A stretch of DNA of 64,000 nucleotides, taken from contig NZ_CP101456.1 in NCBI RefSeq assembly GCF_024362485.1, positions 620,001 to 684,000 on the forward strand, read 5' to 3'. The first letter of the stretch is position 1, and each line of letters starts with the position of its first letter. Shown one piece after another: positions 1,552 through 45,246 of the stretch. This stretch comes from Natronobeatus ordinarius. Its GTDB lineage: Archaea > Halobacteriota > Halobacteria > Halobacteriales > Natrialbaceae. The position numbers and the translations under genes are program-made. Under the pieces are notes generated by a model that saw only the letters and a list, made by a program, of their open reading frames with translations, did not search any database and had not been told where the DNA came from.

Positions 1552-2622
1552 ATGAATGTGTTCTCGGTCGGAGATCGGGAATTCGCCGATAGGGTGAGTT
1601 TCAACCGATATCTGACCGAGAACTATTCTGTATCTCACAACAGTAATCTCCATATTATTGCAGGGATCACTGAGCACCCCTGGTCAAAGCTCATAGATAT
1701 TTTGGAAAATAGTGGATACGAAGTGATTGAGGAACATGGGGAAATCCTCAAGATGAGGCGAGATTATGGATTGAACGGGCGTATTGAATTTTATTTATCT
1801 TTTGATGAGGAACTCCAAGTCATATTATTCTACACTAATATGCGGAAGACGGAAGAGATTGAAAATACAATTGAGGTGTTTTTAAATGACACTCCGGGTG
1901 TTCATTATCTGTATATAAGTCCTCGTGTGATGCAAAGTATTAGAGAAGATATTGCCGAAGAAGAGCCTGCAACTCAAATAACTCATTTCTCCGCAAAGCG
2001 AGTTTCTCATAGCGGTGTTTCCGCCCGGATCCGCCCTGACCATTCACGCACTATAGAATATCATGGAAACGATGGTCTGGAAACTATGCGGGAAATGGAG
2101 GAAAACTATGGGGTTCTTCCTCGTTTGATGGAATTTCGGGTACCTGATCTTTCAAAGTTCAAAATAAATAAAGAAGGGATATTTACGTTCCAGTCAGGTG
2201 ACCTTGATTATTTGTTAGAACAAATCGAGACGTGTATTAAACAGGTTCTTAAGATCAAACGTGCTTACAACGATGCAGATTTCAAAATGGTCAGGACCTC
2301 TGATCAATTAGAAGTCCCGACTGCAGAACCTGCATCTATTACTCTCAAAAATCACCTCCAATACCATGAAGTCGATAATTTCAAGTCGAATATGAAGGAT
2401 AATGGTTATGTCCTATTAGATACATTTGCAGAAGAGGGGTCACTCTACTTATCAAGTAAGGTTATTGATCAAGAGAAGAAGAACACTTTTCGTATAAAAG
2501 CTAACGAAGATGAGATCCGCGTTTTTCCACAAGGCGAAAAAGACATTGGCTCTTTTTTCCGATTCTATGAGTTTGTACAGGATACACTAGACGAAGACGC
2601 ATCTCTGGAGGTTCACGCGTAA
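1552..2622 (+). CDS. Uncharacterised AT-rich protein, first gene of a two-gene module
   Basis: I do not recognise this 356-residue protein (start taken at 'MNVFSVGDREF'; an in-frame start 15 bases upstream is also possible). It is mixed alpha/beta with no membrane segment, signal peptide, P-loop or zinc motif. The C-terminal ~100 residues ('ASITLKNHLQYHEVDNFKSNMKDNGYVLL...') look like a separate small domain. Codon use is AT-rich, unlike most of the window, pointing to transfer. The partner nuclease-like gene starts one base after its stop, so the two are translationally linked. It could be the sensor, antidote or specificity subunit of a nuclease system. Confidence 0.7.
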   Translation: MNVFSVGDREFADRVSFNRYLTENYSVSHNSNLHIIAGITEHPWSKLIDILENSGYEVIEEHGEILKMRRDYGLNGRIEFYLSFDEELQVILFYTNMRKTEEIENTIEVFLNDTPGVHYLYISPRVMQSIREDIAEEEPATQITHFSAKRVSHSGVSARIRPDHSRTIEYHGNDGLETMREMEENYGVLPRLMEFRVPDLSKFKINKEGIFTFQSGDLDYLLEQIETCIKQVLKIKRAYNDADFKMVRTSDQLEVPTAEPASITLKNHLQYHEVDNFKSNMKDNGYVLLDTFAEEGSLYLSSKVIDQEKKNTFRIKANEDEIRVFPQGEKDIGSFFRFYEFVQDTLDEDASLEVHA

Positions 2623-2623
2623 T

Positions 2624-3769: not shown

Positions 3770-3998
3770 CAATGCTAGATGAGTGGGGGTTATATACAAA
3801 CAGTTTACTTTTACACACTATCACTGTTGAGCTTCAGGGATGTTACTGCCTCGGTAGTGCTTGAGTAGTCAACCGGGGTACTTTTATCCGATTCTTCCAG
3901 GAAGTCGGACGGAATCCGCCGCGATCGTGCCGCCCACCCCCACCAAAACAGCTACGTCACCCCGGGTTGCCGTCCGGCTTGCTCGCAAGTCGGACACC

Positions 3999-4586
3999 AT
4001 GAATCTTCAACAACATGAGAAACGAGACGACATGAAGGTCTGGCTCAGCCAGACCGAAGTGGAGCAGCTGCTCGAGGCGGCTCCCGACACCCAGAAACGA
4101 CTCGCGTTCGCTCTCGGCGCGCGCTGTGGCCTTCGATCCCACGAGGTGCTCGACGTCACCCCGAAGGACGTCGTGAGCACCGACGCCGGAACGGTCCTGC
4201 GGGTTCGTGCCGGGAAAGGTGAGAAGTACCGCGAGACACCCGTTCCGCGCGATCTCGCGACGACGATTCGCACGGTGAGCGACGTTCGTGAGGCTCCGGC
4301 CAGTTCTCCGCTGCTCGAGATCTCGACGACGCGCTCGCTCCGGCGATGGCTCACCGCGAGCGCTGGCGAGCTACACCAGGAGACTGGCGACGACGGCTGG
4401 TTGCACCTGGGCTTTCACGACCTCCGGCGGACCTGGGCGACGTCGCTCGCCTCGGCCGACGTCGACCCGATGCTGGTTCTCGACTGGGGTGGCTGGAACG
4501 ACCTGGAGACATTCCTCGAGCACTACCGCGGGACGTACTCACCTGACGCGCAACGACGAGAGCGAGAAAAAGTCGAGTGGCTCTGA
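3999..4586 (+). CDS. int: Compact tyrosine recombinase (SNJ2-type provirus integrase)
   Basis: A 195-residue integrase with the full catalytic set: Arg46 in 'GARCGLRSHE', Lys73 or Lys76 in 'GKGEK', His140 and Arg143 in 'GFHDLRRTW', Trp163/166 in 'DWGGWND', and Tyr176/180 in 'LEHYRGTYS'. It lacks the long N-terminal arm- and core-binding domains of lambda-type enzymes, matching the short integrase described for the temperate pleolipovirus SNJ2. The ATG at 3999 is preferred; the frame stays open upstream to 3861 but without coding character. It probably joins viral DNA to a tRNA gene; the CAU tRNA at 16023 is the natural candidate. Confidence 0.88.
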   Translation: MNLQQHEKRDDMKVWLSQTEVEQLLEAAPDTQKRLAFALGARCGLRSHEVLDVTPKDVVSTDAGTVLRVRAGKGEKYRETPVPRDLATTIRTVSDVREAPASSPLLEISTTRSLRRWLTASAGELHQETGDDGWLHLGFHDLRRTWATSLASADVDPMLVLDWGGWNDLETFLEHYRGTYSPDAQRREREKVEWL

Positions 4587-4592
4587 CCGATT

Positions 4593-4781
4593 CTATTCGT
4601 CAAACAGCCCGTCGACGAGTTCGACCGACCACTTCCCCTCGTCGACGTGGCGGATGTGGACGTGGTGTTCTCCCTCGAGGTCGCCCTGGTCGTTGAGCAA
4701 CCCCTCAATCCGGAGGTCGTCTTTCGGTAGCGTGATGCCTGCCGAGTTGCGATCCAGCTGGCGAAGCTTGTTCAGTGCCAT
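4593..4781 (-). CDS. Small SpoVT-AbrB-like protein next to the integrase
   Basis: A 62-residue protein convergent with the integrase, its stop lying only six bases from the integrase stop. 'MALNKLRQLDRNSAGITLPKDDLRIEGLL' has the SpoVT-AbrB swapped-hairpin pattern ('R...SAGITLPKD'), and the tail 'HVHIRHVDEGKWSVELV' adds short strands. Such proteins recur beside haloarchaeal proviral genes. It may regulate the integrase or the structural operon on the other side. The frame begins further upstream, but the conserved Met at 4781 fits the family. Confidence 0.65.
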   Translation of the reverse strand: MALNKLRQLDRNSAGITLPKDDLRIEGLLNDQGDLEGEHHVHIRHVDEGKWSVELVDGLFDE

Positions 4782-4870
4782 GGGATCGGCGGCAACCCGC
4801 CATGTCATAAAAGTTGCTGAGCCTTGGTTTTACTGACGTTTTCGACGCCCCGGAGAATTCGTGCGTGCGT

Positions 4871-5263
4871 ATGGCTTCAGGCACAATCGACAAGATCGAC
4901 ATGATCGCGCTGTGGGTGTATCCCACAGCTGCGAGTATCGTCTTCGGCATCTGGACGTTGAATGTCCAGGTGCTCGGTGGGTACGACCTTTCGAGAGCGA
5001 TTTTCACCGCCGGTTCGGTCGCTATCTCCGTGCCGTTGATCCTGGCCACGACGTCCATGCTGTGGATCTTGTGGACCAACGAGTTCGACGGCACGAACTA
5101 CTCACAGGCGGAACGCTGGACGATGGTGGGGACGTTGGCCCTGCCGATCATCTACGAGTTCGTTCCGGTGTTCGCTTCGGCACTGCAAACGAGTGACTGG
5201 CTCCTCATCGGAGCGACCGGCCTGACGACCTTCTCGACCGTCTGGCTCAGCTACACGGAGTGA
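4871..5263 (+). CDS. Four-helix membrane protein, VP3-like virion membrane protein
   Basis: A 130-residue protein with four hydrophobic segments (roughly residues 11-30, 42-64, 82-104 and 110-127) and short polar loops. In pleolipoviruses a small multi-TM internal membrane protein (VP3) lies directly upstream of the spike gene, and here the spike gene follows with an overlap near the stop. Gene order and topology support the call; sequence identity cannot be judged here. The ATG at 4871 opens the first membrane helix cleanly. Confidence 0.6.
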   Translation: MASGTIDKIDMIALWVYPTAASIVFGIWTLNVQVLGGYDLSRAIFTAGSVAISVPLILATTSMLWILWTNEFDGTNYSQAERWTMVGTLALPIIYEFVPVFASALQTSDWLLIGATGLTTFSTVWLSYTE

Positions 5264-5268
5264 TACTC

Positions 5269-7032
5269 ATGAAGCTATCATCCACACAGCCCATCGCCCA
5301 CAGGGTGTTCGTCCTCCTGGTCGGACTACTCTTGGTGACGTCGCTGGTCGCCCCGATCGCGACGACCGGTGTGGCGACTGCCGACGACGGAGACGACGAT
5401 GACGAAGAGACTCCGACCGAGGTGAACTGCTACGATCCGAACCAGGCGGAGTTAGCTGCCGCCAGCCTGTACCACACCTGCGACTGGTCGGATGACGTCA
5501 TCGATACTGATGGCCTGAACGGTGACGAGGCCATCATGCATTCGCGAGCGGTGAGCGAGGGTGAGGCGATCGACGCCCACACGGTGATGATCGACAATCA
5601 TCTCACCGACACCTCCACGATCGCGAGCCTCGAGGCGCGCCACGCAATTGCAACGGCGTACGAGAACGGCAATTCCTCGACAGAGGCGCATACTGCTGCC
5701 CAGCAGGCGATCCGCGACTACTACGCGATGCACCAGCGAAATCACCTCGAGGTCCTGCACAAGGGACACCTCCAGTACGCCTACATCGCTGAGGAAGCGA
5801 ACGATGACGGCGACATCTCTGATGAGTTCCTTACCGCGTCGATGAGTCCCCATCCTGACCGCGACGACAGCGGCGTCAGTGCGGTCTTCGTCGGTGGGAC
5901 TGAGACGCTCGAGGTCGAGTTATCCAACGGCGAAACTCACGAGGTAGAGGCGTTGCGCGCTGAGTATGACGTCGATGACCTTCAGGATGGGAATCACGAC
6001 ATCGTACGCACCTCTACCAGACCGTTCCATCCAGTCAAAGAGACCTGGGAGTACAACGAGACGGCCGATCAGTTCGAGGTCGACGAGACGTTCAGCACAA
6101 CCTGCGGTGCGTGTACTAACGTCAATCCCCGGCCAGCAGTGGCGCACGGCAACATCGTTGTGATGAACGTCGGTGGGGTCGACACTGGCGGGGTGCCCAC
6201 TGGTGCCGTCATCGACCACCGTGACTGGTACAACACCTGGTCGGAAATTGAACAGCAGTCTGACCAGCTGGTCGTTAACTACGACCCGGCGTTCGTCAAC
6301 GAGTTGTACGACGCCATGGACGCCGGAATCGTCGATCCCGGCGAAGTCCGATCGGCTGAGGGTCAGGTGCGTCACCTCTCTGGCGACAGCGACGTGACGT
6401 CCCATCGGTTCCAGGATGCGTTCCGAGCCTCGCTCTCGATGTCGAGCCCGGATCGAACGAACGCTTCGTCGATGGTCGTCCACTACAACGGTGCGATCGA
6501 CCAGGAACGGTCGATCAACGAGACGACCGGCGACCGATCGATCGAGCCGACCGAGTACGTCAACGAGACGTACGAAGGGCTGTTGATGGTCTCCGGTGAC
6601 GACATCCCTGAGGGTGGCCTCGAGGTCGGCGAGCCCTATCACACCGACGAGTTCAACCAGACGGTACAGCTCAACAACTTCGACGAAGGTGAGACGGTGA
6701 CCTTCTACGACGGTGAATTCACGATCGAAGCGATGTACGACGACGGCGGCCAGGAGGTCGACGACGTTGACTGGAGCGCTCCCAAGTACGACTCCTACGA
6801 CGCCGAGGAGTACGGCGCATACCTCGATAACATTGCAGACCTGAAAGACGCCATCGAGGACGACCACAGCGGTGGTTCGGTAATCGGTGGCGGCGGTGGC
6901 TGGCTGCCGTCGATGCCCGACTGGGGAACGCCGGACAGCCAGGACGCACTGATCGGCGTCGGCATCCTGGTCGTGATCCTCGCGCTCGTGGTGGTACTGG
7001 CGACGAACCTGCTCGACGCACTGGGGCCGTAA
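5269..7032 (+). CDS. Pleolipovirus spike protein (VP4-like)
   Basis: A 587-residue exported protein: an N-terminal signal peptide ('RVFVLLVGLLLVTSLVAPIATTGVATA', about residues 11-37), a long acidic ectodomain with Cys pairs ('CYD', 'TCDW', 'TTCGACTN'), a Gly-rich linker near 540 and a single C-terminal anchor ('ALIGVGILVVILALVVVLATNLL'). This layout is that of the membrane-anchored spike that binds and fuses with the host in pleolipoviruses. A GGAGTGA ribosome site six bases upstream decides for the ATG at 5269 over a GTG at 5260. It is the second gene of the structural operon. Several NxT/NxS sites suggest N-glycosylation. Confidence 0.75.
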   Translation: MKLSSTQPIAHRVFVLLVGLLLVTSLVAPIATTGVATADDGDDDDEETPTEVNCYDPNQAELAAASLYHTCDWSDDVIDTDGLNGDEAIMHSRAVSEGEAIDAHTVMIDNHLTDTSTIASLEARHAIATAYENGNSSTEAHTAAQQAIRDYYAMHQRNHLEVLHKGHLQYAYIAEEANDDGDISDEFLTASMSPHPDRDDSGVSAVFVGGTETLEVELSNGETHEVEALRAEYDVDDLQDGNHDIVRTSTRPFHPVKETWEYNETADQFEVDETFSTTCGACTNVNPRPAVAHGNIVVMNVGGVDTGGVPTGAVIDHRDWYNTWSEIEQQSDQLVVNYDPAFVNELYDAMDAGIVDPGEVRSAEGQVRHLSGDSDVTSHRFQDAFRASLSMSSPDRTNASSMVVHYNGAIDQERSINETTGDRSIEPTEYVNETYEGLLMVSGDDIPEGGLEVGEPYHTDEFNQTVQLNNFDEGETVTFYDGEFTIEAMYDDGGQEVDDVDWSAPKYDSYDAEEYGAYLDNIADLKDAIEDDHSGGSVIGGGGGWLPSMPDWGTPDSQDALIGVGILVVILALVVVLATNLLDALGP

Positions 7033-7034
7033 CC

Positions 7035-7568
7035 ATGTCCCGCTTTTCAGGTAGGGCGATGGTGGTAGTGCTGGCGCTCGCACTCGTAGCTGTGGGCATG
7101 GGCAGTGGGCTGGCCGCTGCCGATACCGGGGCAGAGAACGAGACGGCCGACCTCGAGGTGATCGCGATCGACGACGCGACGACGATCACCGACTGGGAGA
7201 TCGACGACGGGCGGGCAACCGTCGAGATCCGCACGGAGATCTCCCGCGAGGTGGTGCTGTCGGACGCGGTGGCGGGCCTCACCCACGAAGGCGCGTCGCG
7301 CGTACCCGAGCAACGTCACGACCTCGAGCGCGGGACGCACACGCTGACGATGGACGTCGAGACGATCGACGACCGAGGGGCCGTCTCTGTCGCGACGACT
7401 GGCGGCGCGGTCAGGCTCTCGAGTGGCATCGAAACCAGTGACGATCCGTTCGACGCGTTCGGCGGTGCCAGTGGGCTGCTGTTCGGCATCGTCATGACGG
7501 TCGGACTGGCGGCGCTCGGGGCCGTCTACGTCCTTCGGACCGAGCAAACGGGGGTGGAGAAAGCATGA
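7035..7568 (+). CDS. Exported membrane-anchored virion or assembly protein
   Basis: A 177-residue protein two bases after the spike gene: signal peptide ('MVVVLALALVAVGMGSGLAAADT'), a beta-rich ectodomain of about 110 residues, and one C-terminal transmembrane helix ('LLFGIVMTVGLAALGAVYVL') followed by a short basic tail. The signal-ectodomain-anchor plan resembles the spike in miniature, so it may be a second surface protein or a spike partner. No family was recognised. The following gene overlaps its stop by four bases (ATGA). Confidence 0.6.
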   Translation: MSRFSGRAMVVVLALALVAVGMGSGLAAADTGAENETADLEVIAIDDATTITDWEIDDGRATVEIRTEISREVVLSDAVAGLTHEGASRVPEQRHDLERGTHTLTMDVETIDDRGAVSVATTGGAVRLSSGIETSDDPFDAFGGASGLLFGIVMTVGLAALGAVYVLRTEQTGVEKA

Positions 7569-8374
7569 GCGAACTCTCACACACGTTCAACGACTGGAAG
7601 GACCGGCTGACGTACATCGTCGTCGAGGCGCAGCTGCTCGTCGTCGGCGTCTGTGTGTCGATCGCCGTCGCGCTGCTACTGATCCGGCCGTCGCTGCCCG
7701 GCGTGCCGCCGGTGGCGCTGGGGATGCTCGTTTCGCTGATGCTGTTCGGGCCGCCACTGTTCGGGCTGTTCGCCGTCGGCGCCGAACGGTTGCGCCAGCG
7801 GGATATGGTGACCGTATACCACATCAACGGTGTGACTGACGAGCGCGAGAAGTACTACGTCGCGCCGGAGCTGTGGGACCAGAAGACCGTCGACGGACCG
7901 TCTCCGTACGTGTGCAACGACGGCGATACGTACGAGGTCCGTGAATTCGAGTACTTCGAGGACCTGGACGAACTCCGGGTGACGGGCTGTTACTTCAGCA
8001 AGATCACGGACAGCAAGCTCGTGACGACGAAAGCGATGCTCGAGGACGTCCACGACACGTTCGCGCGGGCGTACCTCGAGTACAACCGACTCCGGGGCCG
8101 CATCAAGCGGATGGGACTCGAGATTCAGGCGGACGTCATCAACGAAGAGGCCGAGGCGGACGAACGCGGGCAGATGGCGCCGAAGACGGCCGTCGCCAAG
8201 CGATGGGAAGCGGCGAAAAAGGACGTCGAGCAGGCCGACATGGACGACATCCAGGACGCCGACAACTACGAGGAGACGTACATCGACGAACACGCGCCGA
8301 AGCCGGTCGCACCGGAGCCGCGACTGTACGACACCGTCCAGGCAGCCGAGACAGATGGAGGGACCGAAAGATGA
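7565..8374 (+). CDS. Two-helix membrane protein with a long charged cytoplasmic domain
   Basis: A 269-residue protein with two N-terminal membrane helices (about residues 20-45 and 55-82, the second 'VALGMLVSLMLFGPPLFGLFAVG'), then a soluble part of ~190 residues that becomes strongly acidic and probably coiled ('KRWEAAKKDVEQADMDDIQDADNYEETYIDEH'). It overlaps the upstream and downstream genes by four bases each (ATGA junctions), so it is tightly coupled to virion gene expression. Function unknown; a role in assembly or packaging at the membrane is inference from context. Confidence 0.55.
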   Translation: MSELSHTFNDWKDRLTYIVVEAQLLVVGVCVSIAVALLLIRPSLPGVPPVALGMLVSLMLFGPPLFGLFAVGAERLRQRDMVTVYHINGVTDEREKYYVAPELWDQKTVDGPSPYVCNDGDTYEVREFEYFEDLDELRVTGCYFSKITDSKLVTTKAMLEDVHDTFARAYLEYNRLRGRIKRMGLEIQADVINEEAEADERGQMAPKTAVAKRWEAAKKDVEQADMDDIQDADNYEETYIDEHAPKPVAPEPRLYDTVQAAETDGGTER

Positions 8375-8574
8375 GATACATCCACGACGGAACGGTTCGA
8401 AACCCGACGGTCGAGCCGCCGAAGCTGTTCATCGTCTGTGAAGACACGACTCACGGACGGGGACGAACTGATACGAGTCTCCTGTTCGCCGACCAGATCC
8501 GAAAGATGCGGGACAGCGTTCCGCTGATTGTCGGTCACGACTCCGGCCGGTGGAGGTGGTCCGATGATACGTGA
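8371..8574 (+). CDS. Small provirus protein of unknown function
   Basis: A 67-residue soluble protein, ATG overlapping the previous stop (ATGA) and its own end overlapping the next gene's start. 'KLFIVCEDTTHGRGRTDTSLLFADQIRKMRDSVPLIVGHDSGRW' suggests one strand, a loop, a helix and a second strand. No motif was recognised. Its support is position: both neighbours overlap it in an operon with continuous translational coupling. Confidence 0.5.
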   Translation: MRYIHDGTVRNPTVEPPKLFIVCEDTTHGRGRTDTSLLFADQIRKMRDSVPLIVGHDSGRWRWSDDT

Positions 8575-8929
8575 GCGGACGAAGGCGATCGTCGCGCTGG
8601 CGTTCGCCGTGGGGCTCGTCTGTGGCCTCTGGGGCGGGCTGCTGTTGCTCCCGGCGGACGCACTGACCGTCCCGACGCAAGAGCGCACGGTCGGTGCTGA
8701 CGGCGACACCCGTGAGCGACCGGCGTTCTATCCGGCTCCGCGAGTGTTCTTCGCGCTGACGATCGGCGCTCCGGCGCTGGCGGGCTACTACGCCTGGGGT
8801 CGGCTCGGCGATCGTGGTGCCGACGCCCTCGAGGACCTGGACGATCCCGGCCTCGAGGAGCCGCCAGCGACGGACGGGGGTATCGACGAGTCGACCGACG
8901 CGGACGTTCACGAGGCAATCTATGGCTGA
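8564..8929 (+). CDS. Two-helix membrane protein of the provirus
   Basis: A 121-residue protein with a first membrane helix ('IVALAFAVGLVCGLWGGLLLL', about residues 9-29), a short polar loop, a second helix ('VFFALTIGAPALAGYYAWGRLG', about 61-82) and an acidic tail of ~40 residues. The start at 8564 overlaps the preceding gene by 11 bases. It lies directly upstream of, and overlapping, the NTPase gene, so it may recruit that ATPase to the membrane; this is inference. Confidence 0.55.
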   Translation: MIRERTKAIVALAFAVGLVCGLWGGLLLLPADALTVPTQERTVGADGDTRERPAFYPAPRVFFALTIGAPALAGYYAWGRLGDRGADALEDLDDPGLEEPPATDGGIDESTDADVHEAIYG

Positions 8930-10091
8930 CGAACAGGACCTTTACACGACTGCACAGGCGCGCGAACATCAGGAAGGTTACAGCGGCCGGGAGAATCGCG
9001 AACTGCACGACCACAGCGGTGTGATCCGCGACGCGAAGCTGTCCCGTCAGCTGTCCATCCGGGCACTACACTACGATCCGTACCGCACGAGCCGCCCCGA
9101 TAAGATGCCAGCGGCGAGCAAAGACCTCGAGAAACACCGCCACATCCGAAAAGTCGAAGGGACTGAAACCCTCCGCACGGCGCTCGAGAACGGCGATATG
9201 CCGACGATCAAGCACCTGGTCGGCGACTCGAGCCAGCGGGCGGACGTCTCCGGCATCAAGGCGATGGGGACGATAGACGAGCTGGTCGCTGGACCGGCAC
9301 CGGTGATCGTCGTGCTCGGTGAAATGGGGGCCGGAAAGACCGACTTCGCCTGTCTGCTCGGCCAGCGGTGGCGCGATCTCCACGGCTCAGATTCCCTGGT
9401 CGGCACGAACATCCAGTCGCTCGAGGAGAAAAACCGCTGGGTGGACGGCGACGGCGACGTCCAGGACGGCTGGATTCCCGACTACGGCACCCTCATGGAC
9501 TGGGTCGAACAGGACGGCGACCCGCTCGAGCACAGCCAACGACCCAAGCTGTTCCTCGGCGACGAGTTCTCTTCAGCCGCCAGCGGCACCGGGAAACAGG
9601 GTTACGAAACCCGCCAGAAGATGGCACCCCTGGTGTACAAGATCCGCAAGTACGGCGGGGCGTTGATCTACATCGCTCACGGCGAGTCGTCCATCCACCC
9701 GATGCTGTGGCGCGTCGGCAAGATCGTCAAGAAGGTCTCGCGAAAGAAGGCGATCGTCGCCGACAAGGTGAGCAACGGCGAGCTCCGGAAGATCGAAGCC
9801 GAGATTGAAGGCATCCCGCCGACGGACTGGCGGTACAACACCAAAGAGGCGAGCGACTGGCGCTGGTCGGCGTTCACCGACGAGGAGAACGACGGCCTCG
9901 AGGCGAGCGAGGCGGCCAAGGCAACGGCGATCTGGACGGCCATTCGCTGTAAAGAGGAAGGCCTGTCGAACCGTGAAACCGCGAAATACGTGCCGTACAG
10001 CCACGGTTGGGTCGGTTCACGCTGGCGTGAGTACACTGACGACGGGAAACACGCCGACACGCTTGCCAAAGTCGAGGAGGTAATTGCATGA
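8922..10091 (+). CDS. P-loop NTPase of the pleolipovirus-type assembly operon
   Basis: A 389-residue protein with a Walker A motif 'GEMGAGKT' (residues 133-140), a Walker B-like 'KLFLGDEFS' near 207-215 and 'YGGALIYIAHGESS', a sensor-like strand after it. The C-terminal ~55 residues ('EEGLSNRETAKYVPYSHGWVGSRWREY') form an HTH, so it may contact DNA. Pleolipoviruses conserve one such putative NTPase after the structural genes; packaging or replication roles are proposed. The ATG at 8922 lies within the end of the membrane-protein gene upstream, and its own stop overlaps the next small gene. Confidence 0.75.
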   Translation: MADEQDLYTTAQAREHQEGYSGRENRELHDHSGVIRDAKLSRQLSIRALHYDPYRTSRPDKMPAASKDLEKHRHIRKVEGTETLRTALENGDMPTIKHLVGDSSQRADVSGIKAMGTIDELVAGPAPVIVVLGEMGAGKTDFACLLGQRWRDLHGSDSLVGTNIQSLEEKNRWVDGDGDVQDGWIPDYGTLMDWVEQDGDPLEHSQRPKLFLGDEFSSAASGTGKQGYETRQKMAPLVYKIRKYGGALIYIAHGESSIHPMLWRVGKIVKKVSRKKAIVADKVSNGELRKIEAEIEGIPPTDWRYNTKEASDWRWSAFTDEENDGLEASEAAKATAIWTAIRCKEEGLSNRETAKYVPYSHGWVGSRWREYTDDGKHADTLAKVEEVIA

Positions 10092-10240
10092 CCGCGTCGG
10101 GGTGGATGGCTGGATACGGATCCGAACCCCCCTTTACTGTCCCTGCGGGACAGCCCATATATGGTCCATTAGGCCCATCGCTCGAGTCTGACCAAGCGGA
10201 GTTGATATATATCGGCGCGCGAGGCGCGTGGTGTGCGTGA
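10088..10240 (+). CDS. Very small provirus protein
   Basis: A 50-residue reading frame whose ATG overlaps the NTPase stop (ATGA), continuing the coupled operon. It is Gly/Pro-rich ('PAGQPIYGPLGPSLESDQAELIYIGARGAW') with no recognised domain. The next gene starts inside its last codons. The case rests on position and overlap only. Confidence 0.35.
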   Translation: MTASGWMAGYGSEPPFTVPAGQPIYGPLGPSLESDQAELIYIGARGAWCA

Positions 10241-10623
10241 ATCGCTCGAAGCGCGCCAACCACTTCGGCACGATCGTCGAGAAGCGCATGGCGAAGAAGC
10301 GTCGGTTCGAACTGGAACGCAGCTCGTGGCACGACGCGAAGTTCGGGAACGGGACGCCAGTCGAAATCAAGAGCACCATGCTTGAGCACGCCGATGGGCA
10401 GCCGGGAAACTTCAAGATCTATCGGAAATACCACGAGAAACTCCGGCGTCACGGTGGCTGGTACTGCTTCGTCATCTACCGACCACATGGGCGTTCAGGC
10501 TGTACGATCCTGAAACACCGAATGTGCAAGGCGTCGAATCTCCCGCTGCTCCGGTGGCACGGCGGGGGAGATCATCGAGGAACTCAGCAAGCAAAGCTCA
10601 CCATTGCTTCTGTTTTCTCGTAG
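10228..10623 (+). CDS. Small PD-(D/E)XK nuclease-like provirus protein
   Basis: A ~131-residue protein, most likely starting at one of the GTG codons at 10228, 10231 or 10237. 'SSWHDAKFGNGTPVEIKSTML' supplies Asp36, Glu46 and Lys48 of a PD-(D/E)XK core; 'FKIYRKYHEKLRRHGGWYCFVIYR' is the following helix and strand. The same layout recurs in the protein encoded at 14898-15386, so this provirus carries two members of one nuclease-like family. Possible roles are junction resolution or recombination in viral replication. The last ~25 residues lie at the border with AT-rich DNA and may be altered. Confidence 0.55.
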   Translation: MVCVNRSKRANHFGTIVEKRMAKKRRFELERSSWHDAKFGNGTPVEIKSTMLEHADGQPGNFKIYRKYHEKLRRHGGWYCFVIYRPHGRSGCTILKHRMCKASNLPLLRWHGGGDHRGTQQAKLTIASVFS

Positions 10624-10723
10624 ATTAACTCATGCAAATACCAGGGTGGCAGGTTATGTATATCTGGCACACGATTATATTTTCTCCAAAAAATTCATTT
10701 GGCTGTCTACTAGTTGGAAAGCT

Positions 10724-11086
10724 ATGTCAGAAGTAACCGTCTTATTATCGCTACTCGAACTAATCGTTTTGATATTAACCGCGATCATTATCTCTCTTCA
10801 ATTCACTTCTATCTTCTACTCACGTGTGTCTCACGAAGAGCAGGATGAAATTCGAAGTTATATTCCCGTAGAAATGATATTTGTTGGTGTGGCCTTCTTT
10901 GGTATTAGTGCCGTAGCAATAATTGTGTACTTGACAATCATTGTTGGGATTGGGTTGAATTGGATGGGGAGAATTGGTTTTGGAAGTATTATGTTGGTTT
11001 TCTCTATCGGTGTGATTCTTTTTGGGACTGCTATAATGACCGTTATTCAAGACATGATGAAAACGGACTTCGACAGAGACAGTTAG
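10724..11086 (+). CDS. AT-rich three-helix membrane protein
   Basis: A 120-residue hydrophobic protein in AT-rich DNA, with helices at about residues 5-28, 47-72 and 78-104. The ATG at 10724 ('MSEVTVLLSLLELIVLILT') is preferred over an upstream in-frame start lacking coding character. No family was recognised. It belongs to a three-gene AT-rich block between the structural operon and the replication operon, a usual cargo position. It converges with the next gene. Confidence 0.5.
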   Translation: MSEVTVLLSLLELIVLILTAIIISLQFTSIFYSRVSHEEQDEIRSYIPVEMIFVGVAFFGISAVAIIVYLTIIVGIGLNWMGRIGFGSIMLVFSIGVILFGTAIMTVIQDMMKTDFDRDS

Positions 11087-11111
11087 AACGTCTACCTTTG
11101 GATTGGTTCGA

Positions 11112-11621
11112 TCACAATATACCTATAACTCCGAAAGTTAGCAATGATATCAAGATTATTAACAAAACTAACACTGCAGAATCAAAAAGAGAGGCTTCTC
11201 GAGTCGGATGTAACTTTAGCAGATACATTCTCCACAAGTACATGGCGATGATCATTACAAACGGAAGTGCTGCCCCTATTGATGATCCAGAGAAGGTATG
11301 AGGGTAGGCAAAACCGAACAGTAAAAATATGTATGCGCCAGACCCGAGGAGCATATACCATTCATTGAGTTTCCGATCACGTTCTTCGAGATCTTCTACA
11401 TTCTCCTCTTTTGAGAGAATAGCAAACTCAGGCATTATACTCAAATATTGTAAGAAAGCTGTGATTCCCAAGATAAGGGTTCCAAGCACTATGTGGAGTT
11501 CATAATATTCTACATTGAGAGTTATCGCGGAAATTGTAGCACCAAATACAATAAGATTCAATTTGACTAATTCAAGTTTCAATCCACTATCTACCATCAC
11601 CGCTAACATAATAACCGACAC
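11112..11621 (-). CDS. AT-rich polytopic membrane protein
   Basis: A ~169-residue protein on the opposite strand to its AT-rich neighbours. Hydrophobic stretches at about residues 22-38, 44-65, 93-110, 116-132 and 145-167 suggest five membrane helices. A charged loop 'SKEENVEDLEERDRKLNEW' sits between the second and third. Several GTG and ATG starts lie within 24 bases (11621 to 11597). Function unknown; exclusion of other viruses at the membrane is one possibility for such provirus cargo. Confidence 0.5.
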   Translation of the reverse strand: MSVIMLAVMVDSGLKLELVKLNLIVFGATISAITLNVEYYELHIVLGTLILGITAFLQYLSIMPEFAILSKEENVEDLEERDRKLNEWYMLLGSGAYIFLLFGFAYPHTFSGSSIGAALPFVMIIAMYLWRMYLLKLHPTREASLFDSAVLVLLIILISLLTFGVIGIL

Positions 11622-11725
11622 ACATTATTGTTTTGGGCAAAGGGCAAGCACGCATTTGCCCTTCACCCTTGGAGGAATTAAGCATGAGAGAAAGACATTA
11701 AAAGATTAAATTGATTGCAAATACT

Positions 11726-12301
11726 ATGGATGCTGAATCCACCTACCAAGCAATAGATGTCTTTTCAAGTCTTGTTCTTGCTATTTTCACAGTGGTTCTT
11801 GCGATAGCCACTTGGCGCTATTATGAACAAAGCAAGCTACAGGCGTCTGAAACAGCATCTCAAACAGAAGAAATGGGAAAGACCCGGAAGCTCAGGTATG
11901 AACCGAAAATGAAGGCAGGAATAACACTAATGGGTCCAAATTTCCATCTTGGATTCGTGAATATTGGTGGTGGAATTGCCCATGATGTTAAGGCTACTTA
12001 TTGGGTAGAAGGTGTGAAAGAATACAAACAAAAATGGGGAACACAGGTACACTACCCAGAAGATAACTACAAAATGGGTATTCCCGTAGATGAATCTCCT
12101 GTTGGTGTAACAGGTGGTTATAGCGAAATTCAGTCCAAATTGGATGGTGGAGACGACACATTTGTAGTAGAATGGAACTATAAAAATGCAGCAGGAGAAG
12201 AGTTTAGTGAAACGCAGCGATTCTCTATTTCCGATAAAATTAAAGAACGTACTGAGGGAACCGAGTTTTACACTAATAAGGAAAGGGAGACGAGGTTCTA
12301 A
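11726..12301 (+). CDS. AT-rich membrane-anchored protein
   Basis: A 191-residue protein with one N-terminal membrane helix ('VFSSLVLAIFTVVLAIATWRYY', about residues 12-33), a short coiled segment, and a soluble beta-rich domain ('PKMKAGITLMGPNFHLGFVNIGGGIAHDVKATYWVEG'). The latter has the look of an Ig-like fold found in small membrane proteins with one N-terminal helix. AT-rich, part of the same foreign block as the two preceding genes. Function unknown. Confidence 0.55.
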   Translation: MDAESTYQAIDVFSSLVLAIFTVVLAIATWRYYEQSKLQASETASQTEEMGKTRKLRYEPKMKAGITLMGPNFHLGFVNIGGGIAHDVKATYWVEGVKEYKQKWGTQVHYPEDNYKMGIPVDESPVGVTGGYSEIQSKLDGGDDTFVVEWNYKNAAGEEFSETQRFSISDKIKERTEGTEFYTNKERETRF

Positions 12302-12569
12302 CCATCGTTTCGGGTGCTTCAACTGGAACGGCGTGGTGCGGAAGCGGGGCGGGTCGGTGTAATTTTTTGGCCTTGTCCCCTTGGGGACACCCGCCAAGGG
12401 GGTTTTCGCGCGAAGCGCGAAACGACCCCGCTGGCGACGCGGTGCGGCTGCGACGCGATCGCGTCGCTCGAGGCGACGACTTCAACAGCACTTGAGTAGC
12501 TGCCGCTATAGTCCAACCTGAGTTGCTGAAAGAAAGGCGACGAAAAGCGTTGCCACTACGGGGGTCGGT
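12302..12569. repeat. Hairpin-rich gap between convergent provirus operons
   Basis: No gene is seen in these 268 bases between two converging transcription units. The stretch at about 12370-12470 has three dyads: GTCCCC-TT-GGGGAC, CGCGCGAAGCGCG and CGACGCGATCGCGTCG, with a T6 run just before the first. These could be bidirectional terminators. Because the replication protein ends here, a replication origin is an alternative. Confidence 0.4.
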
Positions 12570-14192
12570 TCAGTGATCGGCGATGGCGCCGACGAATCCG
12601 GTTTCAGTCGTGCCGCCGGGCGTCGTCCAGGTCATCGACGTCCGCCGGAGCACCGCCGGATCGTTCCCTGAACGGGTCCACTTCTCGAGGGCTTCGCTCG
12701 CGACGCGCTGGGCAGTCTCGAAGCTGTCCGCTTTGAACCAGGAGAGAATGGTGTCGATCCGGAGTCGCTTCGGGTTGCCCTCCTGGTCGAACTCGAGGTC
12801 GGCGCCGTTTTCGGCGAGCCACCGCTGGAAAGGTGAGCACTCGGCGACGTGATCGGCGAGGCCCATCACGTGCTGGAGGCGGTCGGCGTAGCTGTCGATC
12901 GCGTACTCGGCGCTCTCGACGAGCGCACGGATCTCCTCGCGGTACTTCCGCACGCGGTAGGAGACGTGGCCCTCCTCGAGGTCGACGATCTCGCCGAGGT
13001 CGGTGATCGCCCGGTAGATCGTCGCGGGGTGTTTCCCCAGCTGGTCGGCGAGTTCGTCGACGTCGGCGCCGCCGTCGGTCGCGACGATTCCCGCGATCTC
13101 CTCGGCAGTGTCGCTCATGTCGCGAAGCGTCGTCAGCAGCAGGTGGTCCGTCTTCACCTCGAGGCGCGGCGTCGGGTCCGGATAGAGTTCGACGTGATCC
13201 TCACGCGCCACGGCGTCGAAGTGGTCGTCGGGGACGTAGACGCCGGTTGCATCGGGTGCGAGCGGGATGTCGTCCCACGCGAGGAAGTTCATCAGCGTCT
13301 CGTCAATCTCCTCGACGACGCGCTGGCGGTCGGCCCATGCCCATGCCTCACCGTCGTTCATCTTCTTGTTCGCCAGGACTTCCACTTTCGGGTGGTACGA
13401 CGGGTGATCTTTCGACACCGCGTCGGGGTCGGCGAGCTGGTAGATCTCGAACTTTCGGCCGTAGGTGTGCCCCGGCAGCAGTTCGGCCACCGACGCCGGG
13501 TCGAGCACGAGCCGGTTCTGGTGGTTGATGACCTCTCGGTTGTCGATCTTCAGCTCGGCCTTCACCCCTTCCATATCCGTCAGGTGGTGGATCACCTTCT
13601 GGAGTACGCCCGACTTCGCCAGCGTCTCCGCGCGCTCACGGCGAACGCGGACGTACCGCTCGTGTGCCCACTCGCGGCTGTACTCGGGGTGTGGCGGCTT
13701 TCGGAAGTACTCGTGATAGATCGGCTCACCGGCGGCCTCGAAGATCGCGGCGTAGATCTCCGGCAGCAACTCGAGGGCGCGCTCGGGTTCGACGTTCGAC
13801 GGCTCGTACTCGACGTCGACGCCGTCGACCTCACCGAACTGTGATTCCCACGGCAGGTTCACGCGATCGCCCGTCTGCCAGTGACGGAGGTTCGGATGTC
13901 GGGGAGAGATGTTGTAATACAGCTTCGACTCACCCTGTCCCCGAGCCGTAATGTCCCACTCGTACAGCCGCGAGGCGTTGATGTTGTCCCGTGGGCGGGG
14001 GGCGAACCCCGACTTCGAGTAGGCCACCTGGATGTGCCACGGCTCGCCGTCGACCTCGACGTCCAGCTCGAGGTATCCCTCGAACGGTGGGCCGAGCATC
14101 ACGCTCGAGAGCGCGTCGTACGGGCCGCGCCCCCAGTCGTCCCACTTCCAGCGGCCGTGAGACTCGTGAGGGGTGGTCTCGACCTGGGTCAC
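12570..14192 (-). CDS. Putative replication protein of the provirus with C-terminal winged helix
   Basis: A 540-residue soluble protein and the last gene of the leftward operon. The N-terminal part ('ETTPHESHGRWKWDDWGRGPYDALSSVMLGPP') resembles large winged-helix proteins found on haloarchaeal plasmids and proviruses in the replication-gene position (DUF7845, from memory). A wHTH is clear near residues 385-440 ('DVDELADQLGKHPATIYRAITDLGEIVDLEEGHVSYRV'). No Rep-superfamily HUH or polymerase motif was seen. A GTG at 14192 overlaps the preceding stop (GTGA). The frame extends upstream but only as antisense of neighbours. The replication role is inferred from size, position and the lack of any other candidate. 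Confidence 0.6.
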   Translation of the reverse strand: MTQVETTPHESHGRWKWDDWGRGPYDALSSVMLGPPFEGYLELDVEVDGEPWHIQVAYSKSGFAPRPRDNINASRLYEWDITARGQGESKLYYNISPRHPNLRHWQTGDRVNLPWESQFGEVDGVDVEYEPSNVEPERALELLPEIYAAIFEAAGEPIYHEYFRKPPHPEYSREWAHERYVRVRRERAETLAKSGVLQKVIHHLTDMEGVKAELKIDNREVINHQNRLVLDPASVAELLPGHTYGRKFEIYQLADPDAVSKDHPSYHPKVEVLANKKMNDGEAWAWADRQRVVEEIDETLMNFLAWDDIPLAPDATGVYVPDDHFDAVAREDHVELYPDPTPRLEVKTDHLLLTTLRDMSDTAEEIAGIVATDGGADVDELADQLGKHPATIYRAITDLGEIVDLEEGHVSYRVRKYREEIRALVESAEYAIDSYADRLQHVMGLADHVAECSPFQRWLAENGADLEFDQEGNPKRLRIDTILSWFKADSFETAQRVASEALEKWTRSGNDPAVLRRTSMTWTTPGGTTETGFVGAIADH

Positions 14193-14389
14193 GCCAACCC
14201 CTCCCGTTCTGCGAAACAGTCCGGACAGAGCGGCACCGACTGGCCGAAGCGGGTGCTCACCTCGTAGCCAACGTATCCACAGTCGAGACACTCAGACCAG
14301 ACCTCCGACTCATCGGGCTCCTCGTGGGCTATGGGCTCGTCGTCGGCCGGGTCCTGTGGCTCGAGGCCGAAGGCGGTCAGGTCGCTCAT
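14189..14389 (-). CDS. Small zinc-ribbon protein
   Basis: A 66-residue protein with two CxxC knuckles ('CLDCGY' and 'CPDC', about 20 residues apart), a probable zinc ribbon, after an acidic N-terminal tail. ATG at 14389 overlaps the preceding gene's TGA, and its own TGA overlaps the GTG start of the replication gene. Such proteins in viral operons may bind nucleic acid or act as adaptors; no target is apparent. Confidence 0.6.
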   Translation of the reverse strand: MSDLTAFGLEPQDPADDEPIAHEEPDESEVWSECLDCGYVGYEVSTRFGQSVPLCPDCFAEREGLA

Positions 14390-14901
14390 CACGCACCTCC
14401 GGCTCCAGCGAAGTCAGCGAGACTCGCTTCCGGCGACTCATCGGGTTCCTCGAGGGGGATCGTCGACGGGTCCGGGTGGTGGACGACGTCGACGTCCTCG
14501 AGGTCGGCGACGATCGCGTTCGCGAGCAGCCGCCGGTGACACCAGCGGGCGTCTTTCTCCCAGCAGACGAGCCAGACGTCACGCTCGCGAGCGCGATCGC
14601 GCAGCTCGTCGACGACCAGACTCGGTCCCGGCTGCTCGAGGTGAGCGAGATACCGCGGCTCGTACCGAACAGAGTCCCAGGCGATCGCCGACGGGTTCGG
14701 ATCGCCGTTCCGGTCGGCCGCGTTCTCGACGGTCTTGAACGCCTCGAGGAGATCGGCCGGAGGCGCAACGGCCGGGATGTTCCGGTCGGTGAGCCGCTCG
14801 ACGAAATCCTTCGGATAGCGAACGACGCCGAAGACGTCGTCAGCCTCAGCGGGTTCGAATCGGGAGTTCAGCCCGCCGAAGTAGGCCGTTCGAACCGTCA
14901 C
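14389..14901 (-). CDS. DUF488-like protein
   Basis: A 170-residue protein with the hallmark C-terminal motif of the DUF488 family, 'DVWLVCWEKDARWCHRRLLANAI' (Cys-x7-CysHisArg). The N-terminal 'AYFGGLNSRF...DDVFGVVRYPKDFVERL' also fits. DUF488 proteins are widespread and biochemically ill-defined; links to nucleic-acid metabolism and stress have been suggested. It starts with GTG overlapping the preceding TGA. The acidic Pro-rich tail is probably flexible. Confidence 0.7.
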   Translation of the reverse strand: MTVRTAYFGGLNSRFEPAEADDVFGVVRYPKDFVERLTDRNIPAVAPPADLLEAFKTVENAADRNGDPNPSAIAWDSVRYEPRYLAHLEQPGPSLVVDELRDRARERDVWLVCWEKDARWCHRRLLANAIVADLEDVDVVHHPDPSTIPLEEPDESPEASLADFAGAGGA

Positions 14902-15386
14902 GGCCGCTCACCCCCATCGCGGTCGACTTCGGCCGGGTCGAAGATCCGGCTCCAGGACAGCTGGGCGTAGTCCGGTCGGTCACCGGCGTCGATCCACGAC
15001 GACACCAGCTCGTCGACGATCGTCGCCGGGACGATCTTCACCGCGATCACGTCGCGGGAGGGGGCCGGAACACAGACGGCGAACAGGTACACCGCCCCGT
15101 GCTCGAGCAGGTGGCGGTGTTGCTGTTCCCGGAGGTAGTACCGGCCTCGAGTCTGGTTCTCGCCGTAGACGACCATCACCGACTTGATCTCGACGAGCGT
15201 GCCGACCTCGAGGACCGGGAGCGCGACGGTCGGCACGTCCGCCCGCGGCACCAGGACGTCGGCCACCCGCGCGTCGACGTGTTCGTTCTCGACGTCGCGG
15301 ACGTACTCGAGTTCCGGCACCCGCTCGAGGACCGCGGCCTCGGCGGTCTCGCCCGCGTGTTTCGACGACGCTCGAGCGGCGCTCAC
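14898..15386 (-). CDS. PD-(D/E)XK nuclease-like protein
   Basis: A 162-residue protein carrying a PD-(D/E)XK core: Asp43 in 'ARVADVLVP', then Glu66 and Lys68 in 'GTLVEIKSVMV', followed by helix 'YYLREQQHRHLLEHGAVYLFAVCV'. The spacing and the 'VEIKS' and 'Q/YHxxLxxHG' elements match the protein at 10228-10623, so the two are probable paralogues. GTG start at 15386 overlapping the upstream stop. It lies in the replication operon, favouring a resolvase or recombination nuclease role over restriction, but neither is proven. Confidence 0.65.
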   Translation of the reverse strand: MSAARASSKHAGETAEAAVLERVPELEYVRDVENEHVDARVADVLVPRADVPTVALPVLEVGTLVEIKSVMVVYGENQTRGRYYLREQQHRHLLEHGAVYLFAVCVPAPSRDVIAVKIVPATIVDELVSSWIDAGDRPDYAQLSWSRIFDPAEVDRDGGERP

Positions 15387-15502
15387 AGCGGACCACCTCG
15401 CGCACGACGGACTTCGCGAGCACAGTCGGGACAGAGCCGCCGAGAGACGTCGACAGTGGCCTCACATCGCGCACACTCGTCGGACTCGACGAGACGGCTC
15501 AT
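15383..15502 (-). CDS. Tiny zinc-finger protein
   Basis: A 39-residue protein with two CxxC pairs ('ESDECARCEATVDVSRRLCPDCAREV') and a basic end. The ATG at 15502 overlaps the upstream stop, and its stop overlaps the GTG of the nuclease-like gene. Such tiny zinc fingers are common in haloarchaeal viruses. The frame is open further upstream, but the overlap pattern supports this short form. Confidence 0.5.
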   Translation of the reverse strand: MSRLVESDECARCEATVDVSRRLCPDCAREVRRARGGPL

Positions 15503-15621
15503 CGCGAACCACCGTCCTCGAGGTTCTCGGTCAGCGACCGCGTGACGACCACCCAGTACCCGGCGCGGCGTTCGCGACGCTCGACGTCGTACAGCCGGTT
15601 CGCCGGAACGAACGGCGTCAT
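15499..15621 (-). CDS. 40-residue provirus protein
   Basis: A short protein ('MTPFVPANRLYDVERRERRAG' at the start) with ATG at 15621 overlapping the upstream stop and TGA at 15499 overlapping the downstream ATG. One strand-helix-strand could form. No family was recognised. Support comes from the unbroken chain of start-stop overlaps on both sides. Confidence 0.45.
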   Translation of the reverse strand: MTPFVPANRLYDVERRERRAGYWVVVTRSLTENLEDGGSR

Positions 15622-15854
15622 CGCGGCTCACCTCCGTGGCGCCCCGCGGACGTCTCCGGGTCCGGGATCGGGACGTCGACGCCAGCAGCGGAGCCGCGGC
15701 TCAGTCGGGCGTAGCTATCACACTCGCCACAGCGGTGGGCGCGGTCGCGATCGTCACCGAACACTCGGCAGAACTGGTCAGTGACGTGGGAACCACAGTG
15801 GAGGCACCTCGAGGTACTGGCCGACTGCCAGGTGTGAACGCTCACGCCGACCAC
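15618..15854 (-). CDS. Zinc-finger protein opening the leftward provirus operon
   Basis: A 75-78 residue protein with 'CLHCGSHVTDQFCRVFGDDRDRAHRCGECDSYARLSRG', the C..C...C..C pattern of a small haloarchaeal family (DUF7563, from memory). It starts with GTG at 15854 or 15845 and is the first gene of the seven-gene operon. The first conserved cysteine pair follows a 16-residue lead. Likely a nucleic-acid-binding or adaptor protein; the palindromic sites just upstream could be its target or that of the repressors. Confidence 0.6.
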   Translation of the reverse strand: MVGVSVHTWQSASTSRCLHCGSHVTDQFCRVFGDDRDRAHRCGECDSYARLSRGSAAGVDVPIPDPETSAGRHGGEPR

Positions 15855-15894
15855 CCCGTTTCGGCTACTAATTTCGCAAGACGGCGGAGACCCG

Positions 15895-15930
15895 GAACCA
15901 GTGACTGGTTCGGTTCTGGTTTCGAACCAG
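15895..15930. promoter_or_regulatory. Paired palindromic operator upstream of the leftward provirus operon
   Basis: Two dyads share the half-site CTGGTT/AACCAG: GAACCAGT-G-ACTGGTTC (15895-15911, perfect arms) and CTGGTT-TCG-AACCAG (15916-15930). Their centres are 20 bases apart, close to two helical turns. They lie 41-77 bases upstream of the first operon gene, where an archaeal promoter would be. They are good candidates for cooperative repressor binding controlling provirus replication genes. Confidence 0.55.
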
Positions 15931-16022
15931 CTAACCGAGAAAGCGATAATCGGCGACTCAGGTGGCTAAGGCGCTCGTTATGGGCCGAATTGATTTCGGC
16001 CACACTTCGAGTTTTTTGCGCA

Positions 16023-16097
16023 TGGGCCCTGACGGATTCGAACCATCGACCACTCGGTTATGAGCCGAGCGCTCTAACCAGACTGAGCTAAGGGCCC
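16023..16097 (-). tRNA. tRNA with CAU anticodon (probably tRNA-Ile2 or tRNA-Met)
   Basis: A 75-nt cloverleaf: acceptor GGGCCCT/AGGGCCC with discriminator A, D arm, anticodon stem CTCGG/CCGAG around loop CTCATAA (anticodon CAT), and T arm with GGTTCGAATCC. It lacks the intron reported for the elongator tRNA-Met of Haloferax, which favours the lysidine-type Ile2 isoacceptor (agmatidine-modified in archaea). Identity between the two is not settled. The 3' end abuts the provirus. Confidence 0.9.
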
Positions 16098-28261: not shown

Positions 28262-28335
28262 GCCGCCTTAGCTCAGACTGGGAGAGCACTCGACTGAAGA
28301 TCGAGCTGTCCCCGGTTCAAATCCGGGAGGCGGCA
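28262..28335 (+). tRNA. tRNA-Phe (GAA)
   Basis: A 74-nt cloverleaf with acceptor GCCGCCT/AGGCGGC and discriminator A, anticodon stem CGACT/AGATCG-type around GAA, and T arm CCGGTTCAAATCCGG. It is followed by tandem palindromic units that copy its 3' end (see the repeat at 28336-28616). Confidence 0.93.
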
Positions 28336-28616
28336 TGTTTCTGTGGCCGACCTCGCGAACGAGCGTAGCGAGTGAGCCGTCGGTCACGAAACTGCCAGCG
28401 ACCGGATTCTGAACCCTAAAAGACACGGCCCGGGAGCGCAGCGAAGCGAGCACCCCGGAATGTCTTTTTCCGGTTCAAATCCGGGAGGCGGCATACTTTT
28501 GCGGCGAGCAAACTCGCGAGCCGCAAGTATGCGTTCTGAGCGGATTTGAACTAGACTGAGGTTCTGCGAGCGAAGCGAGCAGGTTCTCAGGTGTGGTTCA
28601 AATCCGGGAGGCGGCA
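28336..28616 (+). repeat. Two tandem palindromic units rebuilding the tRNA-Phe 3' end
   Basis: Unit 1 (28336-28493, 158 bp) and unit 2 (28494-28616, 123 bp) each end with an exact copy of the tRNA-Phe 3' end (GGTTCAAATCCGGGAGGCGG then CA). Each unit holds two dyads. The first follows the tRNA copy directly. The second is a long hairpin whose 5' arm is an inverted T-arm copy (CGGATT(C)TGAAC) and whose 3' arm is the direct tRNA-end copy, around a core with GCGAAGCGAGC. The sequence between copies differs between units, while the layout is the same. Further GCGAAGC-type hairpins continue to about 28800. No gene is seen from 28336 to 28937. Confidence 0.85.
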
Positions 28617-30872: not shown

Positions 30873-30900
30873 GCCCCCGAATTACATCCGGGAGGCGGCA
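30873..30900 (+). repeat. Degenerate copy of the tRNA-Phe 3' end
   Basis: This 28-bp stretch repeats the tRNA-Phe T-arm and acceptor end with a few changes; its last 16 bases (ATCCGGGAGGCGGCA plus one) are exact. The bases that follow, TTTCTGTCGCGAAC, are also found right after the tRNA-Val 3' ends near 45172. The rest of the 307-bp gap from 30695 to 31001 holds no gene. Confidence 0.7.
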
Positions 30901-31001
30901 TTTCTGTCGCGAACGACTTCGCCAGCGGAGAACGTGGTGTCCACGAGCTGGCGCTTTTCGTGGCGACGTTTCCGTGCGGTGGCGCCGGACGAATAGCGCG
31001 G

Positions 31002-44936: not shown

Positions 44937-45172
44937 TGGGCTCGGGCGGATTCGAACAACGTCCAGACGTGCTCACTTCGCTGTGCGCGTCTGGCCTCGT
45001 TCGAACCGCCCTCGCGACACGGTGCTGTCGCTCACGAGTTGTTCGCGACAGAAATGGGCTCGGGCGGATTCGAACAACGTCCAGACGTGCTCACTTCGCT
45101 GTGCGCGTCTGGCCTCGTTCGAACCGCCCTCGCGACACGGTGCTGTCGCTCACGAGTTGTTCGCGACAGAAA
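44937..45172 (-). repeat. Two identical 118-bp tail units of tRNA-Val
   Basis: Copies at 44937-45054 and 45055-45172 are identical over 118 bases, and the start of the third period is tRNA-Val itself (45173). In tRNA orientation each unit is TTTCTGTCGCGAAC..., a dyad CTGTCGC...GCGACAG, then a long hairpin. The 5' arm of that hairpin is an inverted T-arm copy (GGGCGGTTCGAAC) and the 3' arm a direct copy of the tRNA end (GTTCGAATCCGCCCGAGCCC then A). The hairpin core is CCAGACG...CGTCTGG with GCGAAGTGAGC in the loop. The layout is the same as at tRNA-Phe. Confidence 0.92.
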
Positions 45173-45246
45173 TGGGCTCGGGCGGATTCGAACCACCGAT
45201 TTCGGCCTTGTAAAGGCCGCGTCATGACCAGCTAGACCACGAGCCC
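45173..45246 (-). tRNA. tRNA-Val (UAC)
   Basis: A 74-nt cloverleaf: acceptor GGGCTCG/CGAGCCC with discriminator A, D arm TGGTCTAGCTGGTCATGA, anticodon loop TTTACAA (TAC) and T arm GGTTCGAATCC. Its 3' end faces the tandem tail units. Confidence 0.93.

Follow-up and report, generated by a model that had tools for sequence, protein, structure and literature searches.

Short, hairpin-rich DNA units that each close on a copy of a transfer RNA (tRNA) 3' end stand behind the tRNA-Val gene of the haloarchaeon Natronobeatus ordinarius, and the same layout recurs at tRNA genes throughout the class Halobacteria. The array lies in a 64,000-nt stretch of the genome (the window; NZ_CP101456.1, positions 620,001 to 684,000), and positions below count from its first letter unless another record is named. 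We think it probable that the units represent integrative cassettes of Halobacteria, non-autonomous and without genes, which would sit at the junction between tRNA positions 53 and 54 and use the attachment module of T-loop-specific tyrosine integrases. This reading draws on the anatomy of the units, their location behind tRNA genes, their fixed orientation and restriction to one class, inverted arms matched to the host tRNA, turnover between sister loci and a core shared with integrase islands. A preliminary description, made from the letters of the window, had named a miniature tRNA-targeting element among the possible explanations; that proposal is now well supported by recurrence across the class at nearly all tRNA kinds, by the host-matched arms and by the core hairpin at integrase-island junctions.

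The host of the array is a tRNA-Val gene with anticodon TAC (45173–45246, minus strand), found by ARAGORN and by Rfam RF00005 (65 bits); against the Rfam models at gathering score the tRNA is the sole match, with no other structured-RNA family. Two units of 118 bp follow it on the same strand, unit 1 (45055–45172) proximal to the tRNA and unit 2 (44937–45054) distal from it. They are identical at 118 of 118 positions, which would most simply reflect a recent tandem duplication. The exact copy number rests on the assembly; the layout is not an artefact, because it recurs in hundreds of genomes. Read in the tRNA sense, unit 1 consists of hairpin A (TTTCTGTCGCGAACAACTCGTGAGCGACAG, tip motif GCGARC..GYGAGC; 45143–45172), a 14-nt spacer, an inverted T-arm (GGCGGTTCGAAC; 45117–45128), a core hairpin (GAGGCCAGACGCGCACAGCGAAGTGAGCACGTCTGGACGTT; 45076–45116) and a direct copy of tRNA-Val positions 53–73 (GTTCGAATCCGCCCGAGCCCA; 45055–45075), all on the minus strand. 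The same parts of unit 2, also on the minus strand, lie at 45025–45054 (hairpin A), 44999–45010 (inverted T-arm), 44958–44998 (core) and 44937–44957 (direct copy). Hairpin A is defined by its sequence, its fold and its recurrence behind other tRNAs, the 41-nt core (GAGGCCAGACG...CGTCTGGACGTT) by its fold and by related core types behind other tRNAs and at island junctions, and the direct copy by its sequence; a longer block of 24 nt differs from tRNA-Val by one base. The inverted T-arm base-pairs with the direct copy, with CCAGACG...CGTCTGG between them, and in other units it tracks the host tRNA. A single unit folds at -62.5 kcal/mol, compared with -42.0 +/- 4.1 for shuffled sequences (n=200; z -5.0; no shuffle as good), and the whole array reaches z -8.1. 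Sequence and fold thus agree with the preliminary description on the exact tandem units ending in the tRNA-Val end and on the T-arm pairing. It had also placed a dyad (CTGTCGC...GCGACAG, in hairpin A) after each tRNA copy; the dyad does follow the tRNA and the first copy, and is missing after the last.

The preliminary description had further suggested looking for the layout at other tRNAs in related genomes, and it is found there almost without exception. The signature GATTYGAAN{26,56}GTTCRAATC is present in 376 of 392 Halobacteria genomes, covering 84 of 86 genera, and a reversed-pattern control has 0 matches; in other classes of the phylum 8 of 204 genomes match, with one or two matches each, as chance predicts. 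A second pattern, blind to the tRNA and built from one core type with a few flanking bases (GAA, GTTC), was searched for in 84,980 species; among the matches listed (80 records), all are Halobacteria. Out of 125 distinct usable matches, 119 stand on the 3' side of a same-strand tRNA gene, 40–382 nt away, behind 30 isoacceptors, and none is in reversed orientation; for the remaining six, the 600 nt upstream contain no tRNA, and tRNA-end copies adjoin most of them. Unit size elsewhere is about 95–170 bp, and neither these units nor the 118-bp units described here contain a conserved reading frame. In N. ordinarius, a DNA search points to tRNA-Gln(TTG), Gln(CTG), Glu(TTC) and Thr(TGT) as further tRNAs with matching sequence behind them. 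When the downstream sides of the 46 tRNA genes found by RF00005 are read, 30 carry the layout, in 41 complete units. tRNA-Trp and tRNA-Pro(CGG), outside the 46-gene list, have one unit each, and at Arg(CCG), Arg(TCT) and Met integrated islands have pushed the units 18–20 kb away. The genome total is at least 35 of 48 tRNA genes. The strict signature marks 25 places in this genome: 23 in tRNA arrays, one probable chance match and one orphan.

Extrachromosomal collections gave little. The core pattern with a gap of at least 14 had no match in IMG/VR; an earlier scan there (120 stretches) was dominated by chance and set aside, its one real case (L129) being a tRNA-Glu with a unit. Across phage and plasmid collections, haloviruses had no units, and plasmid matches were mostly the 22-nt core tip in other settings. 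This tip, GCGCGCAGCGAAGCGAGCACGT, stands without a tRNA on the haloarchaeal plasmids L274, L276 and L277, downstream of a gene annotated as a DNA-binding or OB-fold protein.

Inverted arms are matched to the tRNA behind which they lie. In units not preselected for arm match, the inverted arm and the direct copy agree at 0.75 over nine variable positions, compared with 0.60 +/- 0.01 when arms are dealt randomly, a signal weaker than in preselected units but clear. At sites of disagreement between direct copy and host tRNA, the arm sides with the host in 96 cases and with the copy in 8. Near-identical cores on different tRNAs still have arms that match their own host, and rare T-loops are tracked as well, as behind Asn (ACTCGAAC), His and Gly(CCC) (GAATTGAAC). 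Internal loops fall into types in which a given left side goes with a given right side (CAGGGA with ACCGTG, AGAC with GGCGTG, CCTG with CTCCG, and others); one extra pattern search gave no match. A one-base T-loop insertion (C or T) is frequent in direct copies whose inverted arm keeps the host sequence (L288, L299, L310, L323, L340 and others). We weighed whether a bulged outer-stem base corresponds to the extrahelical bases of attC sites; much of it is noise from alignment where the pairing ends, and we do not make that claim.

Could the core be an integrase attachment module? The 20.3-kb island at tRNA-Arg(TCT) has on its far side the integrase gene and then GAATTAGGCTGAGG...CCTCAGACGTG directly before GTTCGAATCCCATCGTGCCCG; its far end is thus a core-type hairpin at the T-loop junction, and two units lie beyond. 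The integrase is a tyrosine recombinase (PF00589, PF02899, phrog_1) with relatives in 93 of the 101 genomes of the family. Seven of 30 integrase loci have a core-type hairpin directly before the T-loop copy; the cores there include ACTGAGGTTC...GGTTCTCAGGTGTG, as in unit 2 behind tRNA-Phe in the window. The junction of L473 has a CCTG...CTCCG core beside a hairpin with tip GGCGAACGTAGTGAGCC. On the integrase tree the seven core-junction loci form two clades, requiring 2 changes against a shuffled mean of 6.5 (0 of 500). An independent view of the 53/54 junction comes from Haloarcula halophila plasmid NZ_CP119561 (L273), where a tRNA-Cys gene (1413–1555) is split exactly between these positions by a hairpin with the same core type; a search for an intact homologue of this interrupted tRNA-Cys found none. 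The gene belongs to an array of at least 16 tRNA genes (79–2479) adjoining a TROVE-domain gene, and tRNA arrays with a TROVE gene also occur on plasmids of several haloarchaeal genera.

Other islands carry only an acceptor-end copy of about 13–14 nt and sit between the tRNA and intact units. Window positions 1–16022 are part of one of 17.9 kb, integrated behind tRNA-Met(CAT) (16023–16097, minus strand); its integrase (G000:C1:618227-619234) is followed by an attachment copy of about 14 nt and then by a decayed unit, outside the window and beyond the island. The idea that the units act as integrase decoys is not supported here, as the target of ordinary islands is still the tRNA itself and their insertions lie on the upstream side of the units. 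Islands are present at many haloarchaeal tRNAs, and the junctions of islands from the two integrase clades have in common with the units their kind of core and the copy from T-loop to 3' end, so a unit might be debris, the far junction (attR) of a tRNA-integrated island whose genes were deleted. We hold this to be unlikely: the units are uniform in size and free of gene remnants, hairpin A and the inverted T-arm are absent from island ends, other islands integrate between tRNA and intact units at a site of about 14 nt, and arms matched to each tRNA would be left unexplained. The earlier impression that the units are more ordered than attachment-site debris has held.

Between relatives the arrays turn over. 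Among 30 relatives, the units behind the orthologous tRNA-Val vary widely in hairpin A and in core type: L253 and L259 have the same hairpin A with different cores, L246 and L260 different hairpins A with a related core. The sister loci L250 and L251, about 94% identical, differ by one unit length, 103 bp, and their choice of hairpin A and core suggests loss by exchange between two units. In eight multi-unit arrays whose first and last tRNA copies differ, the last is more decayed in seven and less in one. Exchange of core and hairpin A modules between related loci, and the identity of tandem copies, would also be expected of hairpins that spread without a recombinase, by replication template switching and short-homology exchange at T-loops sharing GTTCRA; the inverted arm copies the local T-arm, and fold-back copying would account for it directly. 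This explanation, too, seems doubtful to us. The fixed orientation, fixed 53/54 junction and type-specific internal loops argue for protein recognition, and because the arm keeps the host sequence when the direct copy mutates, there is no sign that the two arms keep correcting each other.

The strand that folds bears on the remaining alternative. The tRNA-sense strand has the more stable fold in 85 of 108 units (RNA parameters; units not chosen by the core pattern). Isolated G.A mismatches favour it, with 42 contexts against 6, and isolated G.T pairs show no significant excess (42 contexts against 30 A.C, p 0.19). A very strong G.T excess on this strand in a first test was due to a position fixed by the search pattern; once corrected it was non-significant, and it was dropped. 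These data, though not decisive, fit a folded sense strand, more readily one of DNA than a plain RNA helix. A host RNA device, transcribed with the tRNA and working in 3' processing or termination, or as a decoy for tRNA enzymes, might appeal to this strand bias, to the T-rich stretch with which hairpin A opens directly after the tRNA and to a class-wide presence that suggests tolerance or use, but we regard it as quite improbable, since the G.T and G.A counts are unlike those of ordinary RNA helices, about a quarter of tRNAs have no complete unit, units are intact even 18–20 kb from their tRNA, unit type and number vary between sister species, and hairpin formation needs no acceptor-strand copy. 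The processing or termination device of the preliminary description finds correspondingly little support, the units being absent from some tRNAs and replaced wholesale between relatives.

The window holds a second array, behind tRNA-Phe(GAA) (28262–28335, plus strand, like the rest of this array). Unit 1 (28336–28493) has hairpin A, inverted arm CCGGATTCTGAAC, core CCTAAAAGACA...TGTCTTTTTCCG and a direct copy ending at 28493; unit 2 (28494–28616) has hairpin A, inverted arm, core TAGACTGAGGTTCTGCG...GCAGGTTCTCAGGTGTG and direct copy, and the outer parts of its core match the island junctions of L448, L467 and L471. A decayed copy of the tRNA-Phe 3' end, then hairpin-A-like sequence, lies at 30881–30930. 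Elsewhere in the genome, the orphan L002 (G000:C1:3924640-3924748) is a hybrid unit with the Arg(CCT) tRNA end on its left and a Val-like end on its right, and adjoins no tRNA gene. At L070 (G000:C1:1476144-1476679) units follow each of a tandem pair of tRNA-Asp(GTC) genes. L086, behind tRNA-Leu(GAG), is a repeat of a different kind, in which the stretch after the tRNA recurs about 180 nt on, after a second tRNA-end copy.

On the cassette reading, insertion would take place between position 53, where the 5' strand of the T-stem ends, and position 54, in the T-loop. A cassette would bring its own tRNA copy, from the T-loop to the last base, and so leave the tRNA gene whole; the hairpin that then follows the restored tRNA would provide, through its 5' arm, a new T-rich stretch behind it. 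The core hairpin beside the direct copy belongs to the type of attachment module found at the junctions of certain full-size elements that encode a tyrosine integrase. Because this module is common to the cassettes and to the junctions of full-size elements, insertion, at least originally, was probably carried out by such integrases in trans. Later change in the arrays would proceed by module exchange, with cores and hairpins A swapped and units lost or tandemly duplicated, and both spread and change may run partly through exchange at the shared T-loop sequence.

Several points weigh against this reading. The full-size elements with core junctions have no inverted T-arm and mostly no hairpin A, so a cassette is not just a deleted form of one, and only some core types have been seen at island junctions. 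Simple integration between different tRNAs would break the acceptor stem, so re-matching of the arms requires an extra step; the candidates are an exchange of modules at GTTCRA, which is universal in T-loops, and copying. The pairwise comparison of similar cores on tRNAs with different T-arms, in which every one of 61 pairs shows the better fit between an arm and its own tRNA, is optimistic, as the units had been selected for a fair arm match. The 103-bp difference between L250 and L251 was considered as a fresh insertion and then dropped in favour of loss by exchange. Finally, we infer from sequence the mobility of the cassettes, the action of integrases in trans, and recognition or recombination through the folded tRNA-sense strand. 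A bolder extension, which we put forward tentatively and think rather less likely than the cassette reading itself, is an integron-like system native to Halobacteria, in which tRNA T-loops would be the landing sites, the folded single tRNA-sense strand the recombination substrate, arms would be re-matched to each host, and tRNA genes would accumulate, exchange and lose cassettes.

Whatever their origin, the units are a regular feature behind most tRNA genes in nearly every haloarchaeal genome, and one that, so far as openly available papers tell, is nameless. No earlier description was found in openly available full-text literature; subscription journals and preprints were outside that scope, so one may exist. 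Their copies are liable to be mistaken for assembly errors during annotation. A 2021 paper ascribed to misassembly a pair of 90-bp direct repeats found at a tRNA-Arg provirus of Haloferax gibbonsii (PMC7911831); these might be units of the present kind. With hundreds of natural host-matched attachment hairpins and two candidate integrase clades, the targeting and survival of tiny gene-less elements in essential tRNA genes become testable.

Among known systems, the integron offers a parallel in layout. Its attC sites are imperfect hairpins built of an outer and an inner stem separated by an unpaired internal loop, diverse in sequence and conserved in structure. The units are likewise short, stand in tandem beside a fixed site and fold into an imperfect hairpin with these three parts, a structure they too keep through varied sequences. 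Unlike integron cassettes, they have no reading frame, their arms match the host tRNA and their tRNA-sense strand is the stabler fold; in place of the attC outer boxes RYYYAAC / GTTRRRY the arms have the T-loop sequence GATTYGAAC / GTTCRAATC. No IntI or attI was present among the neighbours of the window array, a statement about the neighbourhood, as no dedicated IntI search was made. Miniature inverted-repeat transposable elements (MITEs), palindrome-associated transposable elements (PATEs) and repetitive extragenic palindromic (REP) elements resemble the units in being short, gene-less, palindrome-rich, repeated and probably moved in trans; the units differ in their strict location at tRNA 3' ends and in having tRNA-end direct repeats in place of transposon-type ends and target duplications. 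REP elements and their RAYT partners (IS200/IS605 relatives) were compared by layout only. Archaeal tRNA introns sit inside the tRNA gene, whereas chromosomal units start after its last base, outside the mature tRNA; the likeness is limited to the one plasmid tRNA-Cys interrupted by a core-type hairpin. Haloarchaeal tRNA-targeting tyrosine-integrase elements, such as SNJ2-type pleolipovirus proviruses (PMC8371274), share more: a direct repeat of the tRNA 3' end flanks the insert, the tRNA gene is restored, and the core hairpin junction is common to the units and two integrase clades. These elements encode an integrase, whereas the units are gene-less and carry hairpin A and an inverted T-arm. 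Classic proviruses of the pleolipovirus type have acceptor-end attachment sites of about 13 bp (PMC8371274, PMC7911831), in contrast to the 53–73 repeat (21 nt) of the units; here, sites of 13–14 nt occur only in the other islands. Integrative elements in tRNA genes are well known; hairpin cassettes without genes, matched to their hosts and standing behind most tRNA genes across an entire class, are new as far as the open literature shows.
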